Origin: a virus
Length of the DNA: 23,909 nucleotides
Reading direction: 5' to 3' (one strand)
Virus record (IMG/VR): IMGVR_UViG_3300036785_000173
Span: 1-23,909 of that record
Shown here one piece after another: positions 1,007-22,506 of this stretch (position 1 is its first letter; the number at the start of each line of letters is the position of its first letter). The position numbers and the translations under genes were made by a program. The notes under the pieces are model-generated. The model did not search any database. It was given only the letters and a program-made list of their open reading frames with translations, and was not told where the DNA came from.

Positions 1007-1339
1007 TCAACTGTGCGTAGCAAGCTTGTCGTCATGCTTGCCAGCGAGGATTTCCGACACGCGCCCGCCATCGATGTCGAGCGCCAATCCGATCTTGCGA
1101 AACGGCGCCCGTGGCCGCGCCGCGGCGATCGCCTTCACGGCAGCCACCACCGATCCGGTGACCGGCCCGGCTTCGACGCCGGCGCGGCGCCCGTTGAACC
1201 GCCGCCTGGTGGCGTCGGCAAGATCCCGGATCTCTTCGGCCAGGACATAGATCGTCTCGGCGTGTGGATGCGGCTCGGCGAGCACGTGAAGCTCGGCGGC
1301 GATGATGTAGAAGCGATCGCGGATCTCAGGCATTTTCAT
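1007..1339 (-). CDS. Hypothetical protein with C-terminal HTH-like segment, 110 aa
   Basis: The N-terminal half is alpha-helical (RDRFYIIAAELHVLAE, then AETIYVLAEEIRDLADATRRR). The C-terminal segment PFRKIGLALDIDGGRVSEI, about residues 79-98, fits a short helix-turn-helix, a pattern seen in small phage regulators. The gene overlaps the end of the DNA methyltransferase gene by 14 bases, so the two are probably translationally coupled. No other domain is recognised. A DNA-binding role is inferred only from the HTH-like pattern. Confidence 0.7.
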   Translation of the reverse strand: MKMPEIRDRFYIIAAELHVLAEPHPHAETIYVLAEEIRDLADATRRRFNGRRAGVEAGPVTGSVVAAVKAIAAARPRAPFRKIGLALDIDGGRVSEILAGKHDDKLATHS

Positions 1340-2465
1340 GAGACATCATCCGAACAAGCTCAGTTGCGCGGGGGCAGTAGGCGGCAAGGCGAGCCGCGAG
1401 AGTTCTGAGCGCATACGCCGCCGCCAGCGGCACCACGCCATTTCCGAGAAGCCGAAGGCGATCGACCCGCCCCTGCAGGGCGACGGATTGCCAGCTATCA
1501 GGGTCGTCCACCCGGGGGGCCAACCCATAAGCCACTCCACGAACAACGGGTTCAAGGTGAGGCCGGATGCTGAGCGTTTGGCGCCATGCGTCGGCGGCAA
1601 GGGGTCCAGGTGGGAATGAAGCTCCACCGCCTGACCACGCAAGAGCAGTTCGTCCGCGCGTGGGCCGGATCGGCTCAGTCGGCTGCCTTCCGTATCGGCG
1701 ACCGTAGGCGTCGCCCACAAGGCCACCTGCGCGGGCAAGGCCACGCCGGTCATCGACCGATCCAGCTTCGCGAAGTCCGGTCCGGCCTCCGACGCCTTCG
1801 GGGTCGCCCACAGGCCCGCCGCCTCGCTCAGCGGGCGCGAATTGTGATCGTGCGTCGCCTCGCTCGCATAGACCGATCGGTGATCCCGGGCGGTCGGCGT
1901 CGGCCACAGCGGCAGGCTCTCGGGTTCGGTCTTTCGCGACCGCAAGGATGAAGAGACGTTCCCGCTCTTGCGGCGCGCCGACTTCCACCGCCGCGAATAA
2001 TCCGCCTTCAACCTCGAAACCCAGTCGCCGTAGCTCTCGGAAAATGCGGTGCACGCCGCCGGTGTCGAACATGCCGCCGACGTTTTCGATGAACACGCAC
2101 CAGGGTCGGCACTGGACGATGAGCCGGCGGGTGGCGGGCCAGAGGTCACGATCGTCGGTCTGCCCGATCTGCGGTCCTGCCTTGCTGTGCGGCTGGCATG
2201 GGATGCCCGCAAAAAGCATGTCCACGCCTCCACGAAAACGTCGGCCCGGGACGGTTCGGGCATCTGCCCAAACAGGCGCTGCAGCCAAGGCTCCCGCCGA
2301 AAACGCTTCCACCAGGTGGGCGACGGCGACGGCTTCCCTCTCCACGTACAGCACTGGGCGAACGCTAGGAATTGCAAGCTCGACGGCGAGATCAAGGGCG
2401 CCGGCGCCGGTGCAGAAGCTGACGGCGTGCAGATCTCGCTCGGCGGGATGTAGAGCCACATTCAA
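1326..2465 (-). CDS. DNA (cytosine-5) methyltransferase, 379 aa
   Basis: This enzyme transfers a methyl group from S-adenosylmethionine to C5 of cytosine in a specific DNA sequence. Motif I is SFCTGAGALDLA near residue 16. Motif IV is GIPCQPHS with the catalytic Cys of the PCQ triplet, near residue 90. Motif VI is ENVGG near 127, motif VIII is QERERLFILAVA near 166, and motif X is RLRLLGNGVVPLAAAYALRTL near 336. Length and order fit the single-chain phage Dcm family. The start is TTG at 2465 or GTG at 2459; TTG overlaps the stop of the 36-residue membrane gene. Lying downstream of the repressor, it may be expressed in the lysogen and protect the genome from restriction. The target sequence cannot be told. 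Its 3' half also looks coding in another frame (see 1346-1927). Confidence 0.92.
   Translation of the reverse strand: MNVALHPAERDLHAVSFCTGAGALDLAVELAIPSVRPVLYVEREAVAVAHLVEAFSAGALAAAPVWADARTVPGRRFRGGVDMLFAGIPCQPHSKAGPQIGQTDDRDLWPATRRLIVQCRPWCVFIENVGGMFDTGGVHRIFRELRRLGFEVEGGLFAAVEVGAPQERERLFILAVAKDRTREPAAVADADRPGSPIGLCERGDARSQFAPAERGGGPVGDPEGVGGRTGLREAGSVDDRRGLARAGGLVGDAYGRRYGRQPTEPIRPTRGRTALAWSGGGASFPPGPLAADAWRQTLSIRPHLEPVVRGVAYGLAPRVDDPDSWQSVALQGRVDRLRLLGNGVVPLAAAYALRTLAARLAAYCPRATELVRMMSHENA
1346..1927 (-). other. Alternative-frame coding segment inside the methyltransferase gene
   Basis: One base downstream of the main frame (+1), the 3' half reads as a second plausible methyltransferase C-terminus. 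From residue to residue it gives LWPTPTARDH, then HDHNSRPLSEAAGLWATP, then LNPLFVEWLMGWPPGWT, then CRWRRRMRSELSRL and a final AQLSLFG. I recall WPTPTARD repeats and LNPxFVEWLMGWP as typical of the C-terminal half of many phage cytosine methyltransferases. The 5' half of this frame is nonsense, so it could be used only after a +1 shift near 1934-1928. It is either dual coding or a relic of an ancestral frameshift. Confidence 0.45.
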
Positions 2466-2572
2466 GGCCCCGGCCAGTGCTGCACGCCATAGATCGCGAA
2501 GTAGCCCATTGCGGCCAGGATCGCGGCCAGGGCGAGCATGTCGAAGATCAGGATAAGACGGCGACGGTTCAT
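2462..2572 (-). CDS. Small single-pass membrane peptide, 36 aa
   Basis: The peptide starts MNRRRLILIFDMLALAAILA. Three arginines precede a hydrophobic stretch of about 20 residues (roughly 6-29), ending GVQHWPGP. This is one membrane segment with the positive end probably in the cytoplasm. Both ends are coupled by overlaps: its ATG overlaps the stop of the 100-residue gene (ATGA), and its TGA overlaps the TTG start of the methyltransferase (TTGA). This tight packing is the chief support for a gene of this length. The function is unknown; it could be a membrane-acting modulator expressed with the repressor. Confidence 0.65.
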   Translation of the reverse strand: MNRRRLILIFDMLALAAILAAMGYFAIYGVQHWPGP

Positions 2573-3682: not shown

Positions 3683-3910
3683 ATGAGAACGCATCGCCAA
3701 ATCGTTGCGGACGCCGGCGGCCCGAAAAAGCTGCACCGGCGGCTCGGCATCGCCGGCGGCTACGAAACCGTGAAGTCCTGGGCGATGCGCGATCGCATCC
3801 CGTCGCATTATTGGCTGCGCTTGGCCAATGAAGGCGTCGCCACCCTGCACGAACTGGCGGTCGCCGCCGACGCCAAAGGCGACGATCGACAGCAAAGCCA
3901 AGCCGCATGA
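3683..3910 (+). CDS. Cro/YdaS-like HTH regulator, 75 aa
   Basis: The protein reads IVADAGGPKKLHRRLGIAGG, then YETVKSWAMRDRIPSHYW, which matches the YdaS/Cro-like antirepressor family: a helix-turn-helix where the second helix includes the VxxWxxRxxIPxxYW pattern at about residues 30-44. Such proteins bind the operators next to the repressor gene and promote the lytic state. It is the first gene of the rightward operon and its stop overlaps the start of the resolvase gene (ATGA). I took ATG at 3683; longer frames would run into the operator region and the repressor gene. Confidence 0.8.
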   Translation: MRTHRQIVADAGGPKKLHRRLGIAGGYETVKSWAMRDRIPSHYWLRLANEGVATLHELAVAADAKGDDRQQSQAA

Positions 3911-4407
3911 GCCGCGACCTGATCCTGGGGTTCGATCCGGGCATGAACGGCGCCGCCGCGGTGGTCGAACTTGGCGGCGACTTGGTTGAGGTCTTCGATC
4001 TGCCGACGCTGCAGTTGAAGAACAAGCGTGAGCTTGACGCCTACCGGCTGGCCAGCCTGATCGATGCGATGGCTGGCGACGTGCTGGAAGCGTGGATTGA
4101 ACAGGCATGGCCGCGGCCCGGCGAAGGCGGCCCGGCAAGCTTCAAATTCGGCGCCGTCTACGGCGAGATCCGCGGGATCATACAGGCCAATTTCATCCCC
4201 CTGCACACCGTCCCGCCGGTGACGTGGAAGCGGACAATGAAAGTCGCCGCCGACAAGGATGAAGCCCGCCTGGCGGCGTCAACCTTGTGGCCGCAGGAGA
4301 ACAGCCGCTGGCCGAACAAAGGCCATCACGGGCGGGCCGAAGCGGCGCTGATCGCCGACTATGGCCGGCGGCAATTCCAGCGCGAGCACGGGGCGGCAGC
4401 GGCATGA
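3907..4407 (+). CDS. RuvC-like Holliday junction resolvase, 166 aa
   Basis: The fold is RNase H-like. The first acidic residue is D10 in LILGFDPGMNGA, the second E65 in AWIEQAWPRPGEG, and the C-terminal motif is HHGRAEAALIADYG at about 140-153, with E145 and D151 as candidate metal ligands. PPVTWKRTMKV and DKDEAR are typical of phage RuvC relatives. The enzyme would cut branched DNA made during replication or recombination so that concatemers can be packaged. The length of 166 residues is normal. It overlaps both its neighbours by four bases, so the operon is translationally coupled. Confidence 0.88.
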   Translation: MSRDLILGFDPGMNGAAAVVELGGDLVEVFDLPTLQLKNKRELDAYRLASLIDAMAGDVLEAWIEQAWPRPGEGGPASFKFGAVYGEIRGIIQANFIPLHTVPPVTWKRTMKVAADKDEARLAASTLWPQENSRWPNKGHHGRAEAALIADYGRRQFQREHGAAAA

Positions 4408-5879: not shown

Positions 5880-8018
5880 GTGGTGGTTTGGCCGGTCACC
5901 TTCGATGACGAGTTCGCGACGGCGCCGGATTGGGCGAAGCTCTACCGTTCGCAGGATCTGCAGGTAGTCCCGGCGCATCAGCCGAGCGAAGGCGGCGAAT
6001 GGAAGCGCCCCTATGGGAATTGGCTGGAATTCCAAGACAGCCTCGTGCCGCAGGCGCTGTTCGACCGCTGGTATGATCGCGACAAAGGCGAACACCGGCT
6101 GCGCAAGGCCATGGGGGTGATCACCGGGCTTGCGAGCGCCGGGCCGAATTCTTCGGGCCTCGTGGTGCACGATCTCGACGTGAAGGCCGGATCGCAGGCG
6201 TTCGCCTGGTGGGCTGGCGGGCTCGCCGCACACAATAACGGCATGGATCTCGACACCCCGACGCAAACCACCGGCGGCGGCGGGCGGCACATCTTCACCC
6301 GGGCGCCGATCGGTTGGGCGCCGCCGACGTTCAAGACGGCCATAGGCGTCGATCTGCGGGGTCAGGGCGGTTTCGTGATCGTGCCGCCGTCCTACCACAT
6401 GAGCGGGCGCTTCTACGCTTGGGAGCCCGGCAGGGAGCCGTGGACGGTGGAGATCGCCACCACCCCGGACTGGCTGATCGAGCGCACCGATCAGCTACAC
6501 GAAGAGTTCGGCGGACAGCCGGCGCCATGGACAGAGCGCACCGACGCGCCGGACACGGCGAAGGGCGCTTTCGGCTACGACGTAGATGGCCGCGACCACA
6601 AGATGACCGGGATGGTGTTCGCCGCGATCGTGGATCTCTACCGCGAAAGTCCGATCCCGCCGGCCATGCCAGAGCAGCAGGCCGAACTGCAGCGGATCTG
6701 GACGCAGTACGAGCGCAGCACGAAAAGCCGGCTGATCCACCCCGAGCGGTCGAACGCCGATCTGTTAGAGCAGGAAGGCCGCGGCTACACGGCGATGGCG
6801 CGCAAATGGGCCTATCTGATCGCGCCGCGGCATTGGGAGACAAAGGTGCGCGAGGCCGCGCGCTTGCCGCGCCCGAACCCGGCGCCGGTGTGGGGCGAGC
6901 GGCTGAACGAAAGCGTCGCCGCGGCGATATCGCAAAAAAGCGATAGCGCAGATCCCGAAGAGCCCGAGCCGGCGATCCGTCTGATCACCAGCTTCGTTGG
7001 CGAGCCGCCCGAGCGCGAATGGCTGGTGAAGGACTGGATCGCGAAGGGCGTAGTAAACAGCCTCTACGGCGGGTCGGGCGCCGGCAAGAGCCTGCTGGCG
7101 ATGCAGATCGGCGCGGCGATGGCGAGCGGCGCCGACGTGTTCGAAGGGCTGACGACAACCGCCGGCGACGTGCTCGGGATCTTCTGCGAAGACGACGCGG
7201 ACGAACTGCACCGCCGCATGTGGGCGATCCGGGCGGCGATGGGCTACACGATCGGCTACCCGTTCAGCCGCTTCGCTCTGGCGACGCGGGTTGGCGAGGA
7301 AAACCGGCTGGCGGTGGTCGATCGGGCCGGCAACATCACCACCGGGCCATTTTTCGCAACACTGAAAAGCGCGGTCGAAGCCGGTAACCCGGCGCTGCTG
7401 ATCCTCGACACGCTCGCCGATATCTACGGCGGCAACGAGAACGCCCGCGAGCAGGTGAACTGGTTTCTGAAGACGCTGTTGACCGGGCTGATCGTTTCAC
7501 AAAAAGCCCGTGGCCACAGCCTTACGGTGTTGCTGATCGGCCACCCGAGCCTGACCGGAGCGCAGGATGGCGGGCGCGGCTATTCCGGCAGCAGCGCATG
7601 GGAGGCCGGCGTGCGCGCCCGGCTCTATCTTAACAAGCCAGATCCCGGCGGCCCGGACGATCGCATCCTCACCCGGGGCAAGGCCAACTACGCCTCCGCG
7701 GGCGACGAGACGGCGATCCGGTTGACCTACGTTGACGGGGTGTTCCGGGCGGAAGGCCCGCCGGAAGATCCGGTGCTCAGCCCGGCCAAGCTCAAAGTGA
7801 TCGAGATGGTCCGCTGGAATTGGGGCGCCGGCAAGCCGTTCATGGATGCGAAGACGCATCCGCGGAACCTGTGGAAAGCCCTGGTTCCGCCGATCGCCAA
7901 GGAGTTCGCCCTGACCCGGGCGCAGGCCAGCCAAGCGATCCGCGAACTGATCGAAGACGGCGAGATCCGGCTGAGCCGCGACCACAGTAAGCGGGGTTGG
8001 AAAACGTCAGATGACTGA
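5880..8018 (+). CDS. PrimPol and RepA-like helicase fusion, replication protein, 712 aa
   Basis: Residues 1-185 form a bifunctional primase-polymerase domain: acidic pair D98/D100 in VVHDLDVK, His137 in GGGGRHIF, and D158 in GVDLRGQGGFVIVPPS. From about 385 to 610 there is a RecA/RepA-type ATPase with Walker A GGSGAGKS (397-404), Walker B LLILD ending at D510, and a polar motif LLIGHPS. The last 70 residues (ALVPPIAKEFALTRAQASQA, then IRELIEDGEI) form a winged helix. One protein could thus make primers, unwind DNA and recognise the origin. The start is GTG at 5880 with AAGAAGG upstream. Length and domain order match other phage primase-helicases of this kind. It is the main replication gene here. 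Confidence 0.92.
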   Translation: MVVWPVTFDDEFATAPDWAKLYRSQDLQVVPAHQPSEGGEWKRPYGNWLEFQDSLVPQALFDRWYDRDKGEHRLRKAMGVITGLASAGPNSSGLVVHDLDVKAGSQAFAWWAGGLAAHNNGMDLDTPTQTTGGGGRHIFTRAPIGWAPPTFKTAIGVDLRGQGGFVIVPPSYHMSGRFYAWEPGREPWTVEIATTPDWLIERTDQLHEEFGGQPAPWTERTDAPDTAKGAFGYDVDGRDHKMTGMVFAAIVDLYRESPIPPAMPEQQAELQRIWTQYERSTKSRLIHPERSNADLLEQEGRGYTAMARKWAYLIAPRHWETKVREAARLPRPNPAPVWGERLNESVAAAISQKSDSADPEEPEPAIRLITSFVGEPPEREWLVKDWIAKGVVNSLYGGSGAGKSLLAMQIGAAMASGADVFEGLTTTAGDVLGIFCEDDADELHRRMWAIRAAMGYTIGYPFSRFALATRVGEENRLAVVDRAGNITTGPFFATLKSAVEAGNPALLILDTLADIYGGNENAREQVNWFLKTLLTGLIVSQKARGHSLTVLLIGHPSLTGAQDGGRGYSGSSAWEAGVRARLYLNKPDPGGPDDRILTRGKANYASAGDETAIRLTYVDGVFRAEGPPEDPVLSPAKLKVIEMVRWNWGAGKPFMDAKTHPRNLWKALVPPIAKEFALTRAQASQAIRELIEDGEIRLSRDHSKRGWKTSDD

Positions 8019-10551: not shown

Positions 10552-12147
10552 ATGACGCTCGGCGCCGCGACGGTGATGTCGCCGGAAGAGCGCGAGATCC
10601 GGCAGCGGTATAAGGATGATTATCGGTATTTCGCCGAGCGGTGCCTGCGGGTGCGCAGCAAGGCTGGCGACTTGGTGCCGTTCCGGTTCAACAGCGTGCA
10701 GGACTTCGTGCACGCGCGGTTGGAAGAGCAGCGCGAAAGTACGGGGAAAGTTCGCGCCTTAGTCCTGAAGGCTCGTCAGGAAGGTTTGAGCACCTACATT
10801 GGCGGGCGGTTCTATCATCGCGCGACGCATCAGCGCGGGTGTTCAGTGTTCATCCTTACGCATGAGCAGGACGCCACGAACCAACTTTTCTCGATCGTTG
10901 ATCGGTTCCATAAGCATAACCGCGGGCCGCTGAAGCCACTTACAGGGGCGGCGAACGCGAAAGAACTGTATTTCAGCGGCCTGGACAGCGGTTATTCTGT
11001 TTCGACGGCGGGGACGAAAGCGACTGGCAGAAGCAAGACGATCCAGTTGTTCCACGGTAGCGAGGTTGCATTTTGGCCGAACGCGAGCGAGCACTTTGCC
11101 GGCGCGCTGCAGACTGTGCCGGATATGCCGGGAACGGAGATTGTCTTAGAAAGCACGGCGAACGGGATCGGCGGCGAATACCACGAACGATGGCAGCAAG
11201 CCGAGGCCGGCGACGGGGATTACCAAGCGATATTTTGCCCGTGGTTCTGGTCTACTGAGTATCAGCGGGTTCCGCCGCTCGGGTTCGTGCTGAACGATGA
11301 GGAGGCGGAATACGCCGGGTTGCATGGGTTGAACCTGCAGCAGATGTGCTGGCGGCGCGCGAAGCTGGCGGAACTGAAGGATCTGAAGCTCTTTCAGACC
11401 GAGTACCCGGCGACCGCCGCCGACGCTTTCCAGACCACCGGCCACGATGCGTTCATTCCGTCGCTGCTGGTGCTGCAGGCGCGCAAGCGCACCTGCGAGG
11501 GCATTGGCTCGCTGGTCGTCGGCGTCGATCCGGCGCGCTACGGTGACGATGCGTTCTGTGTCGCCTGGCGGCGTGGGCGCAAGCTCGAAAAGGTCGAGCG
11601 GCGCTACAAGCTCGACACGATCCAGGGCGCCAACTGGATCAGGAAGATCATCGATGACGACAAGCCGGCGCAGGTGTTCGTGGATCTCGGCAACACCGGC
11701 GCCGGTGTGGTCGATCTGCTGCGCGACTGGGGCGGCGACTATGAGCGGCTGACCGAAGGGGTCAATTTCGGCGCCGCGCCGATGGACCCGGTGACCTACA
11801 CCGGCAAGGGCGATCCTGTGCCGGGTCCGCGCAATCGCCGCGCCGAGATGTGGATGCGGCTGAAAGAGTGGCTGCAGGATGAGGGCGGCGCGGATCTGCC
11901 GGATGACGACGCCTTGCACGCGGACTTGGTGGCGCCCGGCTACAAGTACGACGCGCGGCAGTTCCTGCTGCTGGAAAGCAAGGATGACATTCGTAAGCGG
12001 GGCTTGCGGTCGCCGGACGGCGGCGACGCCGCGGCGTTGACGCTGGCGCGTCCGGTGAAGGCGACCGACGAAACCGCCGCCAGCGCGGGGCGCTGGCGGC
12101 GGTCGCAAGGTCGGGGCAAGGGGTTGTCGAGCCTATGGGGGCGGTAG
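10552..12147 (+). CDS. Terminase large subunit, 531 aa
   Basis: This is the ATP-driven packaging motor and nuclease. The ATPase domain has the terminase-type Walker A KARQEGLST (73-81), Walker B ending in E171 (QLFHGSEVAFW) and coupling motif ESTANG (200-205). The nuclease domain has acidic residues D326 (VVGVDPARYGDD), D378 (VFVDLGNTGAG) and D492 (SPDGGDAAAL), an RNase H-like fold that cuts concatemers. The length is normal. The first ATG has GGTAGG upstream; an ATG at residue 9 is possible. The last 15 bases overlap the end of a minus-strand gene, and no terminator separates them. Confidence 0.96.
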   Translation: MTLGAATVMSPEEREIRQRYKDDYRYFAERCLRVRSKAGDLVPFRFNSVQDFVHARLEEQRESTGKVRALVLKARQEGLSTYIGGRFYHRATHQRGCSVFILTHEQDATNQLFSIVDRFHKHNRGPLKPLTGAANAKELYFSGLDSGYSVSTAGTKATGRSKTIQLFHGSEVAFWPNASEHFAGALQTVPDMPGTEIVLESTANGIGGEYHERWQQAEAGDGDYQAIFCPWFWSTEYQRVPPLGFVLNDEEAEYAGLHGLNLQQMCWRRAKLAELKDLKLFQTEYPATAADAFQTTGHDAFIPSLLVLQARKRTCEGIGSLVVGVDPARYGDDAFCVAWRRGRKLEKVERRYKLDTIQGANWIRKIIDDDKPAQVFVDLGNTGAGVVDLLRDWGGDYERLTEGVNFGAAPMDPVTYTGKGDPVPGPRNRRAEMWMRLKEWLQDEGGADLPDDDALHADLVAPGYKYDARQFLLLESKDDIRKRGLRSPDGGDAAALTLARPVKATDETAASAGRWRRSQGRGKGLSSLWGR

Positions 12148-16927: not shown

Positions 16928-17151
16928 CGATCGTAGCCCTGCAGACGGTGCTGGTCGCCAATGGCGCGCGCAGCCGCAAGACCGGGCGCCCCGTCGCCGG
17001 GGCGCCGTCCCTGGTGGAGATCAAGGCGGCGCAACTGCTGCGGTCCTGCGGCCTGTCGATCAAGGCCGTGGCGTTCGACATGGGCCGTTCGAAGTCGTGG
17101 GTGAGCCAGTGGACCCGCGGCCCACAACGCCGGCGGGGGGCTTATGACTGA
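16924..17151 (+). CDS. Small HTH protein, 75 aa
   Basis: The centre and C-terminus, AAQLLRSCGLSIKAVAFDMG, then RSKSWVSQWTRGP (about residues 35-67), form a helix-turn-helix of the resolvase/homeodomain-like kind. The N-terminal half is basic. It starts with GTG overlapping the previous stop and ends overlapping the portal start. It may be a DNA-binding packaging or regulatory accessory; the role is not shown. Confidence 0.65.
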   Translation: MTIVALQTVLVANGARSRKTGRPVAGAPSLVEIKAAQLLRSCGLSIKAVAFDMGRSKSWVSQWTRGPQRRRGAYD

Positions 17152-19294
17152 CGCGCGCGAGAGCGGCCCGCAGTTCGATGCGCAGAAGACCCCCGCCGAA
17201 GGCGCGAGCGGCGACGACGATTTGCTGCAGCGGTTCGATGACTGGGATGTGGCGCTGACCCAGCACTGGTCCGCCTGGCGATCGAACGCCCGCTACTGGT
17301 ACGCCTTCGTGTCGGGGGAACAGTGGACCACCGAAGAGATCGCCGTGATGGAGGAAGGCGAGAAGATCCCGGTCACCTTCAACCTGACCGCGCCGGTGAT
17401 CGACGCCGTGCAGGGGGCCGAGATCCAGAACCGCCAGCAGGTGCAGTATTACCCGCGCGAAGTCGGTGACACCGGGATTTCCGACGTGCTCACCCAAGGC
17501 GCTGAATATGTGCAGGACGAATGCAACGGCGATCAGGAGGACAGCGAGGCGTTTTGGGATTGCTTGGTGACCGGCCTCGGCTGGACGGAGACGCGGCCAG
17601 AGGTCGAAGCCGATCAGGTGATGCTGATCAAGGAACGGGTCGATCCGCTGCAGATCATGGTCGATCCGGCGGCCCGCAAACGCTGCTTGGAGGATCGCCG
17701 TTACCTGAAGCGCGAGATCCCGATGTCGGCGGACGAATTCGAGGATTTCAAGGCAGAGATTGGCCGCACGGACATTTCCGGCGACGGCGTCGGGCTCGGC
17801 GACGGCAAGCGGGTGACGATCGTGGAGCCGCGGCAGCGGTACACCCACGGCATGCTCGGCGAAGGCTACGATCAGGACACCGTGATCGTCGCCGAGTGGC
17901 AGTGGTGGGATCGCGAGCCGGTGATGCTGGCCGCCCTGCCCGACCCGCAGAACCCCGGGGTGGTGAAGATCCAGAAGCTGGCCCCTGACGATTTCAAGCA
18001 GGTGAAGGCGCAGACCCCGGACCTGAAGTTCTCCAAGAGCCACCAGAAGGTCTATTACCGGGCCTTCGTCGGCGAAGGTGAAGTGCTGTTCAAGGAACAG
18101 CTTCCCGAGAACGATTTCCGCTACCAATGCATCACCGGCAAGCGCGATCGCAACAGCGGCACGTGGTTCGGGCTGATCAAGCCGATGGTCGATCCTGGCC
18201 GTTTCGTCAACAAGCTCTATTCCGAGATCCTGCACATCATCCGCACCAACGCCAACGGCGGCATGGCCTTGGAAGAGGATGCGGTCGCCGACATCCGCAA
18301 GTTCGAAGCCACCTGGGCCTCCACTGACAAGATCACGTGGCTGAAGCCGGGGGCTCTGTCCGGCGCGCACGGCGCCAAGATGCTCCCCAAGCAGCCGCCG
18401 ACCATTCAGACGGCGCTGTTCCAGTTGATGGAATTCGCCAAGGACATGGTCAAGGCCACCACCGGCGTGAATGAGGAAATCCTCGGCCTGGTGGGTCGCG
18501 AACAGGCCGGGGTTTTGGAGCAGCAGCGCAAGCAGGCGGCCTATGGGATCTTGAGCGCCTTCTTCGACGCCAAACGCCGCTATCAGCGCCAGCAGGGCAA
18601 GCTGCTGCTGGCGCAGATGCGCGAGTATTTCCCGCCCGACAAGCTGGTGCGGATCGTTGACCAGGGCACCTCGCAGTTCGTGCCGTTGGCGCAGTCGCTG
18701 GACGCGCAGCAGTACGACATCATCGTAGACGAGGCGCCCGCCGGCCCCGACCAGAAGGCGAAGGTGATGCAGGTGCTGCTGCCGCTGCTGCCGCAGCTTC
18801 TGCAGGCGGGCTTGATCGGCCCGGAAGAGATCGCCGACATCATGCCGTACCTCGACGTGCCCGCCGCAGTATCGATGAAGCTGGCGAACAGCATCCGCCA
18901 GAAAGCGCAGGCGCAGCAGCAGGCGGCGATCCCGCAGCAGCAGGCCGCGCAGATCGCGCAGATGGCCGAACTGCAGAACAAGCAGGCCGACACCGGGAGC
19001 AAGAAAGCCGACGCCGCCCACAAGCAGGCGCAGGCGTTCAAGGCGGTCACCGACGCGCATGCGTCGCACATCGGCCTTGGCGTCGAGTTCCTCAAAGAAG
19101 CGACCGGCGCGCCATCCGCGGCGTCGGCGGGTCCGGGCGGGGCGAACATCGGCCCCGGGCAGATCCGCCACGCGCAGCCGCCGGCGATCCCTCCCGGCCA
19201 GCCCGGCACCCCGGGGGAAAGCCGCCTGCCGCCGCCCGGGGTCGCACCGCAAGTGACCCAGCCCGGCTCGCGGCAGCCGCCGATCCCGATGTAG
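17144..19294 (+). CDS. Portal protein, P22-type, 716 aa
   Basis: The portal forms the ring at the unique vertex through which DNA enters, and joins the terminase and the adaptor. The N-terminal part LLQRFDDWDVALTQHWSAWR, RYWYAFVSGEQW, IPVTFNLTAPVIDAVQGAEI, then QQVQYYPRE, is typical of P22-like portals, as is the central VDPLQIMVDPAARKR and the helical stretch ATTGVNEEILGLVGREQAGV. The C-terminus from about residue 580 is a long Gln/Ala-rich helical barrel (AQAQQQAAIPQQQAAQIAQM) followed by a Pro/Gly tail. The length of 716 fits this family. It overlaps the HTH gene start by eight bases. Confidence 0.92.
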   Translation: MTDARESGPQFDAQKTPAEGASGDDDLLQRFDDWDVALTQHWSAWRSNARYWYAFVSGEQWTTEEIAVMEEGEKIPVTFNLTAPVIDAVQGAEIQNRQQVQYYPREVGDTGISDVLTQGAEYVQDECNGDQEDSEAFWDCLVTGLGWTETRPEVEADQVMLIKERVDPLQIMVDPAARKRCLEDRRYLKREIPMSADEFEDFKAEIGRTDISGDGVGLGDGKRVTIVEPRQRYTHGMLGEGYDQDTVIVAEWQWWDREPVMLAALPDPQNPGVVKIQKLAPDDFKQVKAQTPDLKFSKSHQKVYYRAFVGEGEVLFKEQLPENDFRYQCITGKRDRNSGTWFGLIKPMVDPGRFVNKLYSEILHIIRTNANGGMALEEDAVADIRKFEATWASTDKITWLKPGALSGAHGAKMLPKQPPTIQTALFQLMEFAKDMVKATTGVNEEILGLVGREQAGVLEQQRKQAAYGILSAFFDAKRRYQRQQGKLLLAQMREYFPPDKLVRIVDQGTSQFVPLAQSLDAQQYDIIVDEAPAGPDQKAKVMQVLLPLLPQLLQAGLIGPEEIADIMPYLDVPAAVSMKLANSIRQKAQAQQQAAIPQQQAAQIAQMAELQNKQADTGSKKADAAHKQAQAFKAVTDAHASHIGLGVEFLKEATGAPSAASAGPGGANIGPGQIRHAQPPAIPPGQPGTPGESRLPPPGVAPQVTQPGSRQPPIPM

Positions 19295-19309
19295 CAGAAA
19301 GGCGCAAAA

Positions 19310-20176
19310 ATGAGCGAACCGCATGACGCTCCCGAGAATGACGCCCCGGAAGAGGGTGAAGAGCAGCAGCCGGACGAACAGCAAGGCGGCGAAGCCGAAA
19401 GCGGCGACGAAGGCGATGGCGATGAGCCGCCAGCGCGGGCGGCGAAACCCGAGGATTGGGAGAAACGCGCCCATAACCACGCCGGCCAAGCAGCCCGTGA
19501 ACGGTCGAAACGGCAGGCCGCGGAACGGCGGGCGCAGGAACTGGAAGGCCGCCTCGAAAGGCTCGAAAAGCAAGGCGGCGGCTCGGCGGAAGACGAACTG
19601 CTGGCGACGATCGCCGGCCTGCGGGAAGACGATGACGATCCGATGGGCGACATCGCCCGGGTGAAACAGGCGCTGCGGATCTTCCGCAGCCGCCAGGTGG
19701 CTGAAACCGAGGAAACCAGCCGCGCCGGCGCCGTCGAGCGGCAGATCAATGGCCTGAAGTCGGCGATGGCCGATTGCGAGGCCGATTTCGTGATCGAGCA
19801 TCCCGATTACATGGCCGCGGCAAAGCACTACCGTGACGCGCGGGTGGAGGAACTGAAGGACGCCGGCTACGCCGGCCACAACCTCGATCGCAAGCTGGCC
19901 GACGATCTGTTCGGCGTCGTGCGCATGTCGCTAGAGGCCGGCTTGGACCCCGCCGAGCGGGTCTATGCGCTGGCGCAGAAGCGCGGCTTCAAGGTCGGGC
20001 AGAAGCAGGCCGACCAGAAGCTGAACGCGCTCGATCGGGCGGGCGCCAGCGGCGTGCGGGCGAACGGGCGCACGCCGGCAGGGGTGCTTAGCTGGGGTGA
20101 TGTCGCCAAGCTCGACGGGGCGGCCCGCGACAAGGCGTGGGCCAAGCTGCGCGAGCGTGAACGGAGGACGCATTAG
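19310..20176 (+). CDS. Probable scaffolding protein, 288 aa
   Basis: The first 50 residues are strongly acidic (APEEGEEQQPDEQQGGEAES, GDEGDGDEPP). Next comes a coiled-coil segment, about 60-90 (AARERSKRQAAERRAQELEG, RLERLEKQ), then a helical middle and a basic C-terminus (KAWAKLRERERRTH). An acidic disordered start, coiled coil and basic end, placed between portal and capsid genes, are the usual features of head scaffolding proteins, which bind the coat protein by the basic end. Sequence identity to a named family is not recognised. AAAGG lies eight bases before the ATG. Confidence 0.8.
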   Translation: MSEPHDAPENDAPEEGEEQQPDEQQGGEAESGDEGDGDEPPARAAKPEDWEKRAHNHAGQAARERSKRQAAERRAQELEGRLERLEKQGGGSAEDELLATIAGLREDDDDPMGDIARVKQALRIFRSRQVAETEETSRAGAVERQINGLKSAMADCEADFVIEHPDYMAAAKHYRDARVEELKDAGYAGHNLDRKLADDLFGVVRMSLEAGLDPAERVYALAQKRGFKVGQKQADQKLNALDRAGASGVRANGRTPAGVLSWGDVAKLDGAARDKAWAKLRERERRTH

Positions 20177-21432: not shown

Positions 21433-22506
21433 ATGGCCGGCACAGTCTATGGCGTGAACGCGCCAGAAGCCGTCAAGCTTTGGCGATCGCAACTGGCTCG
21501 CGAAGCCTTGAAGGCGACCTGGGTGCAGAAGTTCATCGGCGACACGTCCGATGACATCATCCAGACCTTCGCTGAAACCGGGAAGTCGGACGGCGACCGG
21601 GTGACGGTCACCCTGCGCATGCAGTTGACCGGCGACGGCGTGTCCGGCGACGGCACCCTGGAAGGCAATGAAGAGCCGCTGACCACCTACACCGACAACC
21701 TGATCATCGATCAGCTTCGCCATGCTGTGCGCAGCGGCGGCAAGATGACCGAACAGCGCATCCCGTGGGAGATCCGCGAGGAAGCCATGCTCGGGCTGAA
21801 GGACTGGTGGGCGCAACGCATCGACACGGCGACGTTCAATCAGATGTGCGGCTACACGCCGGTCACCGACCCGAAATTCACCGGCATGAACGCGATCAAT
21901 GGGCCGGACGCCAACCACATCACCCGCCCGAACGCCAAGGCGTCGGATCAGGCGCTGGCCGCGGGCGACGAAATGAGCCTCGCGCTGATCGACAAGATGG
22001 TGGAGAGCGCCAAGCTCGGGTCCACCACGGCCACGGGGCCGGTGATCCGCCCGGTCAACGTCAACGGCGAAGATCGTTACGTCGTGGTGATGCACACCCG
22101 GCAGGTGACGCAGCTTCGCAATCAGGCGGTCGGGCTCGGAACTTGGATCGACATCCAGAAGGCCGCGATGACCGGCGACGGGTCGGCCAAGAACCCGATC
22201 CTGACCGGCTCGCTCGGGGTCTACAACGGCGCCGTCCTGCACGAAAGCACCCGCATCACCAACGGCGTTGACAGCGGCGCCGGCACGCCGGTGCTCACCG
22301 CCCGCCGTTGCGTCCTGCTCGGCGCGCAGGCCGGGGCGATCGGCTTTGGCAAGGGGCAGTCGTTCAAGTCCTTCGATTGGAATGAAGAACTGTTTGACTA
22401 CGGCAACCAGCTTGGCGTCGAAGCCGGGCTGATCCACGGGGTGAAGAAGCTCCGGTTCAACGCGCAGGACTTCGGCGTGATCGTCGGGTCCACCTTCACG
22501 AATTAG
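21433..22506 (+). CDS. Major capsid protein, N4-gp56 family, 357 aa
   Basis: This builds the icosahedral shell. The N-terminus KLWRSQLAREALKATWVQKF, then GDRVTVTLRMQLTGDGVSGD, GTLEGNEEPLTTY and LIIDQLRHAVRSGGKMTEQR is characteristic of the N4-gp56-type coat family, with later RYVVVMHTRQVTQLRNQA and an ending DFGVIVGSTFTN. The length of 357 is close to the family average. AAAGG lies eight bases before the ATG. It is insulated from the upstream operon by a terminator, which fits the need for many copies. Confidence 0.93.
   Translation: MAGTVYGVNAPEAVKLWRSQLAREALKATWVQKFIGDTSDDIIQTFAETGKSDGDRVTVTLRMQLTGDGVSGDGTLEGNEEPLTTYTDNLIIDQLRHAVRSGGKMTEQRIPWEIREEAMLGLKDWWAQRIDTATFNQMCGYTPVTDPKFTGMNAINGPDANHITRPNAKASDQALAAGDEMSLALIDKMVESAKLGSTTATGPVIRPVNVNGEDRYVVVMHTRQVTQLRNQAVGLGTWIDIQKAAMTGDGSAKNPILTGSLGVYNGAVLHESTRITNGVDSGAGTPVLTARRCVLLGAQAGAIGFGKGQSFKSFDWNEELFDYGNQLGVEAGLIHGVKKLRFNAQDFGVIVGSTFTN

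Follow-up and report, generated by a model that had tools for sequence, protein, structure and literature searches.

The window, a stretch of 23,909 nucleotides of viral DNA (positions 1 to 23,909 of IMG/VR record IMGVR_UViG_3300036785_000173), carries on its minus strand two open reading frames that share almost all of their length. The first, F0, encodes a C5-cytosine DNA methyltransferase and occupies 1326..2459, from a GTG start at 2459 to a stop at 1328-1326, with an alternative TTG start at 2465 (ORF 2465-1326). The second, F2, lies in the +1 frame and occupies 1346..2461, from an ATG at 2461 to a stop at 1348-1346, encoding 371 aa without interruption. The start codons overlap as ATGTG (2457..2461), where ATG belongs to F2 and GTG to F0, and F2 almost completely overlaps F0, giving a doubly coding stretch of 1.1 kb. 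Directly downstream of the pair lies a gene for a 110-aa protein of the unknown family phrog_23243 (1007-1339, minus strand). Phage core genes are found on the plus strand between 3907 and 22506: a RuvC-like resolvase (3907-4407), a primase/helicase (5880-8018), the terminase (10552-12147), the portal (17144-19294) and the major head protein (21433-22506). A 939-aa ORF antisense to the portal gene (17060-19879, minus strand) looks like the mirror ORF of a GC-rich gene.

F0 matches Pfam PF00145 (E 6e-24, residues 15-188) and phrog_363 (E 7e-43), and has the C5-methyltransferase motifs I, IV (PCQ), VI (ENV), VIII (RxR) and X. Motifs I-VIII make up the catalytic part (1932..2432, minus strand; SFCTGAGALDL, PCQPHS, ENV, QERERLFIL), while the conserved motif X, RVDRLRLLGNGVVPLAAA, lies at 1416..1469 (minus strand) and is modelled as a helix with pLDDT >95. 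The AF2 model of F0 is confident for residues 11-180 and for motif X, with the catalytic part mostly at pLDDT >90, and the top Foldseek matches, M.HaeIII and M.HhaI, extend over about 170 columns. C5-methyltransferases normally carry a target-recognition domain between motifs VIII and X. The corresponding linker of F0, the VADADR region (1626..1925, minus strand), is predicted to be disordered, as are most of residues 186-335 (linker pLDDT about 35-50), and no small domain is present in the model.

F2 can be divided into an N-terminal half (1937..2461, minus strand; MWLYIP...PS.A...W..SL.ASRAS), overprinted on F0 motifs I-VIII, a region of WPTP repeats (1592..1909, minus strand) and a motif-IX-like segment, LNPLFVEWLMGWPPGWT (1505..1555, minus strand). 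The WPTP region is presumed to be a target-recognition region, because it sits between motifs VIII and IX/X and because its homologue in the fused enzyme of phage Martik, described below, is flanked by VIII and X. F2 matches phrog_1008 (E 7e-23) and phrog_27243 (E 1e-12), and these matches point to the second frame having a protein family of its own. Its structure was poorly predicted when modelled alone (pLDDT 61, pTM 0.27), with a partly helical N-terminal half; Foldseek found no C5-methyltransferase small domain in this poor model, and no sequence relative of F2 was found in the PDB.

A first-pass annotation had proposed that the 3' half of the methyltransferase gene is coding in two frames, and every peptide that it quoted is present on the minus strand: LLGNGVVP (about 1451-1428) and AVADADR in the main frame, and LWPTPTARDH, NSRPLSEAAGLWATP, LNPLFVEWLMGWPPGWT and LSLFG in the frame one base later, with VRGVAYGLAPRVD overlapping FVEWLMGWPPGWT across frames as claimed. 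Translated separately, the 3' half matches phrog_1008 (E 1.6e-14) and phrog_27243 (E 1.7e-13) in the F2 frame and, more weakly, phrog_29583 (E 8e-8) in the F0 frame. The proposal turned out to be an understatement, as F2 is conserved along the entire gene and so also across its catalytic 5' half.

Two Synechococcus phages were among the tblastn matches to F2, and scanning viral contigs revealed 216 stretches that encode F2 relatives; most of the best 80 match over the full length, with identities of 27-61%. The fetched loci keep F2 as well as F0 open, with many stops in the third frame, and the two occur together in all of the approximately 230 viral and genomic loci examined. Since the set of 216 was chosen by F2 similarity, a second set was fetched by F0 alignment only, to remove that selection; here a match to F2 was found at +1 in 80/80 loci, and F2 was open over at least 91% of F0 in 78/80, including genomes of 39-55% GC. 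Conversely, F0 stands in the same relation to F2 in all 72 of the bacterial loci recovered with F2, none of which has F2 without F0. The pair is thinly spread in bacterial genomes (7/289 and 7/369 genomes in two classes). A single stop inside F2 occurs in a few relatives (L072, L074, L077, L080), and a single early F0 stop in another (L175); these are either decaying copies or sequencing errors. Deposited coding sequences cover the F2 frame only in Synechococcus phage Ssp-JY39 (L001), Acidovorax phage Alfacinha3 (L011) and Salmonella phage SLP-22 (L005), and the F0 frame only in L003, L004 and L006, so that each of these records hides one of the two proteins.

Openness alone proves little at this locus, because the window is 59-71% GC and full of long spurious ORFs. 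Thus, the case for dual coding rests on stop counts against codon shuffles, on rates at the three codon positions and on low-GC relatives. We calculated the number of F2 stops expected from shuffling synonymous codons within F0, keeping both the F0 protein and its codon usage. Across 75 loci, F2 contained 3 internal stops against 309 expected (4 are counted if the window's own terminal stop is included). For 116 loci, no stops were seen in the N-terminal half or in the middle of F2, against 265 and 120 expected, respectively (~385 together), and in loci below 56% GC the corresponding figures were 0 against 103 and 0 against 55. The F0 linker is likewise kept open, despite its disorder, with 29 stops in the same 116 loci, all in 6 of them, against 382 expected. 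The two-frame finding therefore survived the counting of stops in close relatives as well as the search for matching database proteins, the two conditions that the first-pass annotation had named as refuting it.

Substitution patterns give the same picture. Among pairs at 80-97% F0 identity, differences at codon positions 1, 2 and 3 were 0.158, 0.069 and 0.168, against 0.108, 0.083 and 0.367 in neighbouring genes of the same phages; third positions of the F0/F2 locus are not free. F2 identity in the closest pairs (0.80) is about equal to that of F0. To obtain dN/dS-like ratios, we sorted substitutions according to what they do in each of the two frames (an OLGenie-like count), for pairs that are not independent of one another; the ratios were 0.42-0.68 in the N-terminal half of F2, 0.59-0.75 in its middle, 0.30 in LNPLFVEWLMGWPPGWT, the segment under the strongest F2 constraint, and about 0.5 at its end, while F0 gave 0.17-0.30 in motifs I-VIII, 0.93-1.2 in the middle between VIII and X, and 0.28-0.30 in motif X. 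Purifying selection thus acts on F2 throughout and on F0 everywhere except the VIII-X stretch, which is neutral and evolves as if its sequence did not matter, in agreement with its disorder in the AlphaFold model. We do not lean primarily on codon-shuffle z-scores of F2 similarity, which common ancestry raises in close pairs.

Could F2 nevertheless be open and conserved merely through high GC content, codon bias and the conservation of F0? The abundance of long spurious ORFs in the window and the choice of the 216 relatives by F2 similarity would both lend themselves to such an artefact. However, shuffles that preserve F0 and its codon usage still produce hundreds of stops, the pattern persists at GC 0.39-0.56 and when loci are chosen through F0 alone, and third positions are not free. 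The stop counts already refute an artefact unless an unknown non-coding constraint forbids stops in F2, and we give this explanation next to no weight. Computationally, then, the whole gene is dual coding, not its 3' half alone, and selection appears to maintain the arrangement in hundreds of phages and prophages.

The distribution of motifs between the frames is informative about what the two products might do. Motif IX was assigned in F2 from where it lies and from the Martik fusion; on this basis, 201 of 226 loci have an LNP-type motif IX in F2 and none has one in F0, while motif X is in F0 in 210 of 226; the F0 chain thus has neither motif IX (0/226 loci) nor a target-recognition small domain (residues 186-335 being largely disordered). 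Ordinary single-chain enzymes (L249, L250, L251, L253) have motif IX in-frame, such as RRLTPRECFRLQGFPD. In these controls F2 is absent or very weak and the +1 frame is not open, with stops close to expectation (observed/expected 11/11.9, 15/19.8, 21/25 and 19/17.2, respectively). In Mycobacterium phage Martik, gp71 has motifs I-VIII, an LPTP region of the F2 type, an LNP-type motif IX and motif X all in one ORF, and in other actinophages (L008, L009, L010, L012) the second part is a separate ORF at +1; these actinophage versions start later, so that the N-terminal half of F2 is dispensable there. The fused and two-ORF forms together suggest that the C-terminal half of F2 belongs to the methyltransferase. 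They also bear on the first-pass proposal that one C-terminal type arose from the other by frameshift, which holds in part: the actinophage C-terminal half (LPTP.../LNP-type motif IX) shares one frame with motif X, whether fused in-frame to motifs I-VIII, as in Martik gp71, or as a second ORF at +1.

These data also speak to the idea that F2 acts on its own in some process other than methylation, such as anti-defence, and is overprinted on a self-sufficient methyltransferase gene. The N-terminal half of F2 would fit such a protein, being constrained and having no known relatives or fold in family, PDB and fold searches. However, F2 was never found without F0, it carries the motif IX that F0 lacks, its C-terminal half is fused to the catalytic part in actinophages, and F0 has no predicted target-recognition domain of its own. 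We therefore regard an unrelated function as very improbable.

The start codons provide a further line of evidence. In most relatives the starts of F2 and F0 overlap as NTGTG (an NTG-TGG arrangement), and F2 begins M-W because F0 begins GTG-G; variants exist in which F2 begins MTW or MAW and F0 starts at ATG. Many relatives have a TGA directly before the F2 ATG, a junction that suggests coupling to the upstream gene. In the window, a 36-codon ORF (MNRRRLILIFDMLALAAILAAMGYFAIYGVQHWPGP; 2462-2572, minus strand) ends in a stop that abuts the F2 ATG (TGA-ATG). Its product is likely a membrane peptide and its translation may be coupled to that of F2; the window's own ribosome-binding site is weak.

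The first-pass annotation had offered a different route to two products, a +1 shift near 1934-1928 yielding two isoforms. In a programmed frameshift of this kind, ribosomes would begin translation in F0, move to the +1 frame once motifs I-VIII had been read, and end in F2, making a one-chain isoform that includes the target region and motif IX. Martik gp71 is a natural in-frame fusion of these parts, and in four loci with a broken linker the first F0 stop is a TGA followed by C, shortly after motif VIII. However, this TGA-C lies in codons conserved in F2, and we found no slippery sequence shared among the loci. Nor would a shift explain why F2 has its own conserved NTG start overlapping that of F0, or why its N-terminal half, upstream of the shift site and unused by such a product, is free of stops (0 seen, 265 expected) and under purifying selection; to reach motif X, moreover, a second shift back would be needed. 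We consider a programmed frameshift unlikely, though less so than an unrelated function for F2.

Instead, we think it very probable that the locus is a naturally split C5-methyltransferase of the M.EcoHK31I kind, in which F0 encodes an alpha and F2 a beta subunit, each from its own start. The two frames are never found apart, each is conserved under purifying selection, and the motifs are shared out between them. Translation of F2 would begin at the ATG and that of F0 at the GTG overlapping it; alpha would consist of the large domain with motifs I-VIII, which binds AdoMet and performs catalysis, followed by a disordered linker of neutral sequence and then motif X, and the C-terminal half of beta would bring the WPTP-repeat target-recognition region and motif IX. 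From the sequences we infer independent initiation of F2 at its own start, assembly of alpha and beta into one active enzyme, as in M.EcoHK31I, and a contribution of the F2 N-terminal half to this. That half may be a product of the beta start migrating upstream as far as the alpha start. Several observations count against the split reading: the poor F2 model, in which Foldseek found no small domain, the lack of PDB relatives, the dispensability of the N-terminal half in actinophages, the placing of the M.EcoHK31I target-recognition domain in alpha, and the weak ribosome-binding site.

Natural variants show other divisions of the same parts. Five loci (L109, L112, L217, L223, L224) retain motifs I-VIII, F2 and motif X although stops close the F0 linker. 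Where counted, linker stops were close to the number expected without constraint (14/11.4, 4/3.9, 5/4.6 and 4/5.3, observed/expected). Motif X begins at its own ATG in the linker-broken loci, in L112 behind the strong site AGGAGG, and these loci apparently encode a three-piece methyltransferase. L115 and L134 have an intermediate layout, in which F0 stops before motif X and motif X lies in F2, after an LNP-type motif IX.

Gene finders allow one frame per place, and consequently the records examined hold either a methyltransferase or a 'WPTP' protein, not both. We consider it probable, if less so than the split enzyme itself, that widespread phage 'orphan' C5-methyltransferases are obligatorily made from two fully co-extensive frames that start at one NTGTG site, as three polypeptides in some lineages, with one subunit unannotated per record. 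If this is true, few same-strand gene overlaps known in DNA phages would match it in length and breadth of conservation. Reading the locus in two frames would account for both annotations and correct many phage and prophage records, and it would also explain failed heterologous tests if one of the frames had been re-coded or truncated in the constructs used. In prokaryotes and their phages, long overlaps on the same strand are disputed, and this family offers a clean, quantitative and directly testable case, whose natural intermediates (fused, two-piece, fully overlapped and three-piece) show how an overlap can grow.

Our search of open-access papers found no description of this arrangement in phages. 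Both phrog_1008 (named DNA methyltransferase) and phrog_27243 match F2, the end of phrog_1008 matching F0 motif X, and no record examined describes either as the second frame of a methyltransferase gene. Two candidate counterparts from Paracoccus/Sinorhizobium prophages were ruled out: the relaxed-specificity m5C enzymes, which are about 700 aa and of another type, and the YGGCCR enzyme, which is m4C. The nested phage genes Rz/Rz1 also yield two proteins from two frames of one locus, but their overlap is much shorter and their function unrelated. A closer parallel is M.EcoHK31I, a two-polypeptide C5-methyltransferase recognising YGGCCR, whose small subunit Lee et al. in 1995 reportedly found to be encoded in another frame within the large-subunit gene, much as F2 overlaps alpha here. 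However, beta is here as long as alpha, at 371 aa against a reported 176 aa for M.EcoHK31I, the starts overlap and the gene is phage-borne. Searches of plasmids did not turn up M.EcoHK31I. The motif layouts are alike, in that the large subunit of M.EcoHK31I has motifs I-VIII and X and the small subunit motif IX (PMC3404938), just as F0 has I-VIII and X without IX and motif IX is on the second polypeptide, F2. The predicted target-recognition domain of M.EcoHK31I is placed in alpha (PMC3404938), whereas the VIII-X stretch of F0 looks like a neutral, non-functional linker. Fragments of several C5-methyltransferases complement each other (PMC3404938), and in M.AquI, too, two polypeptides make one enzyme. 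The second subunit of M.AquI, however, holds part of the variable region together with motifs IX and X (PMC3404938), whereas motif X stays with alpha here; among the relatives, it is the two-ORF forms of actinophages (L008, L009, L010, L012) that come nearer to the M.AquI layout. Finally, the ShiLan domain, an HNH encoded out of frame within a phage methylase gene (PMC11855218), shares with F2 the hidden second frame, but it is mobile and confined to one insert, whereas F2 extends over the whole gene and is no HNH.
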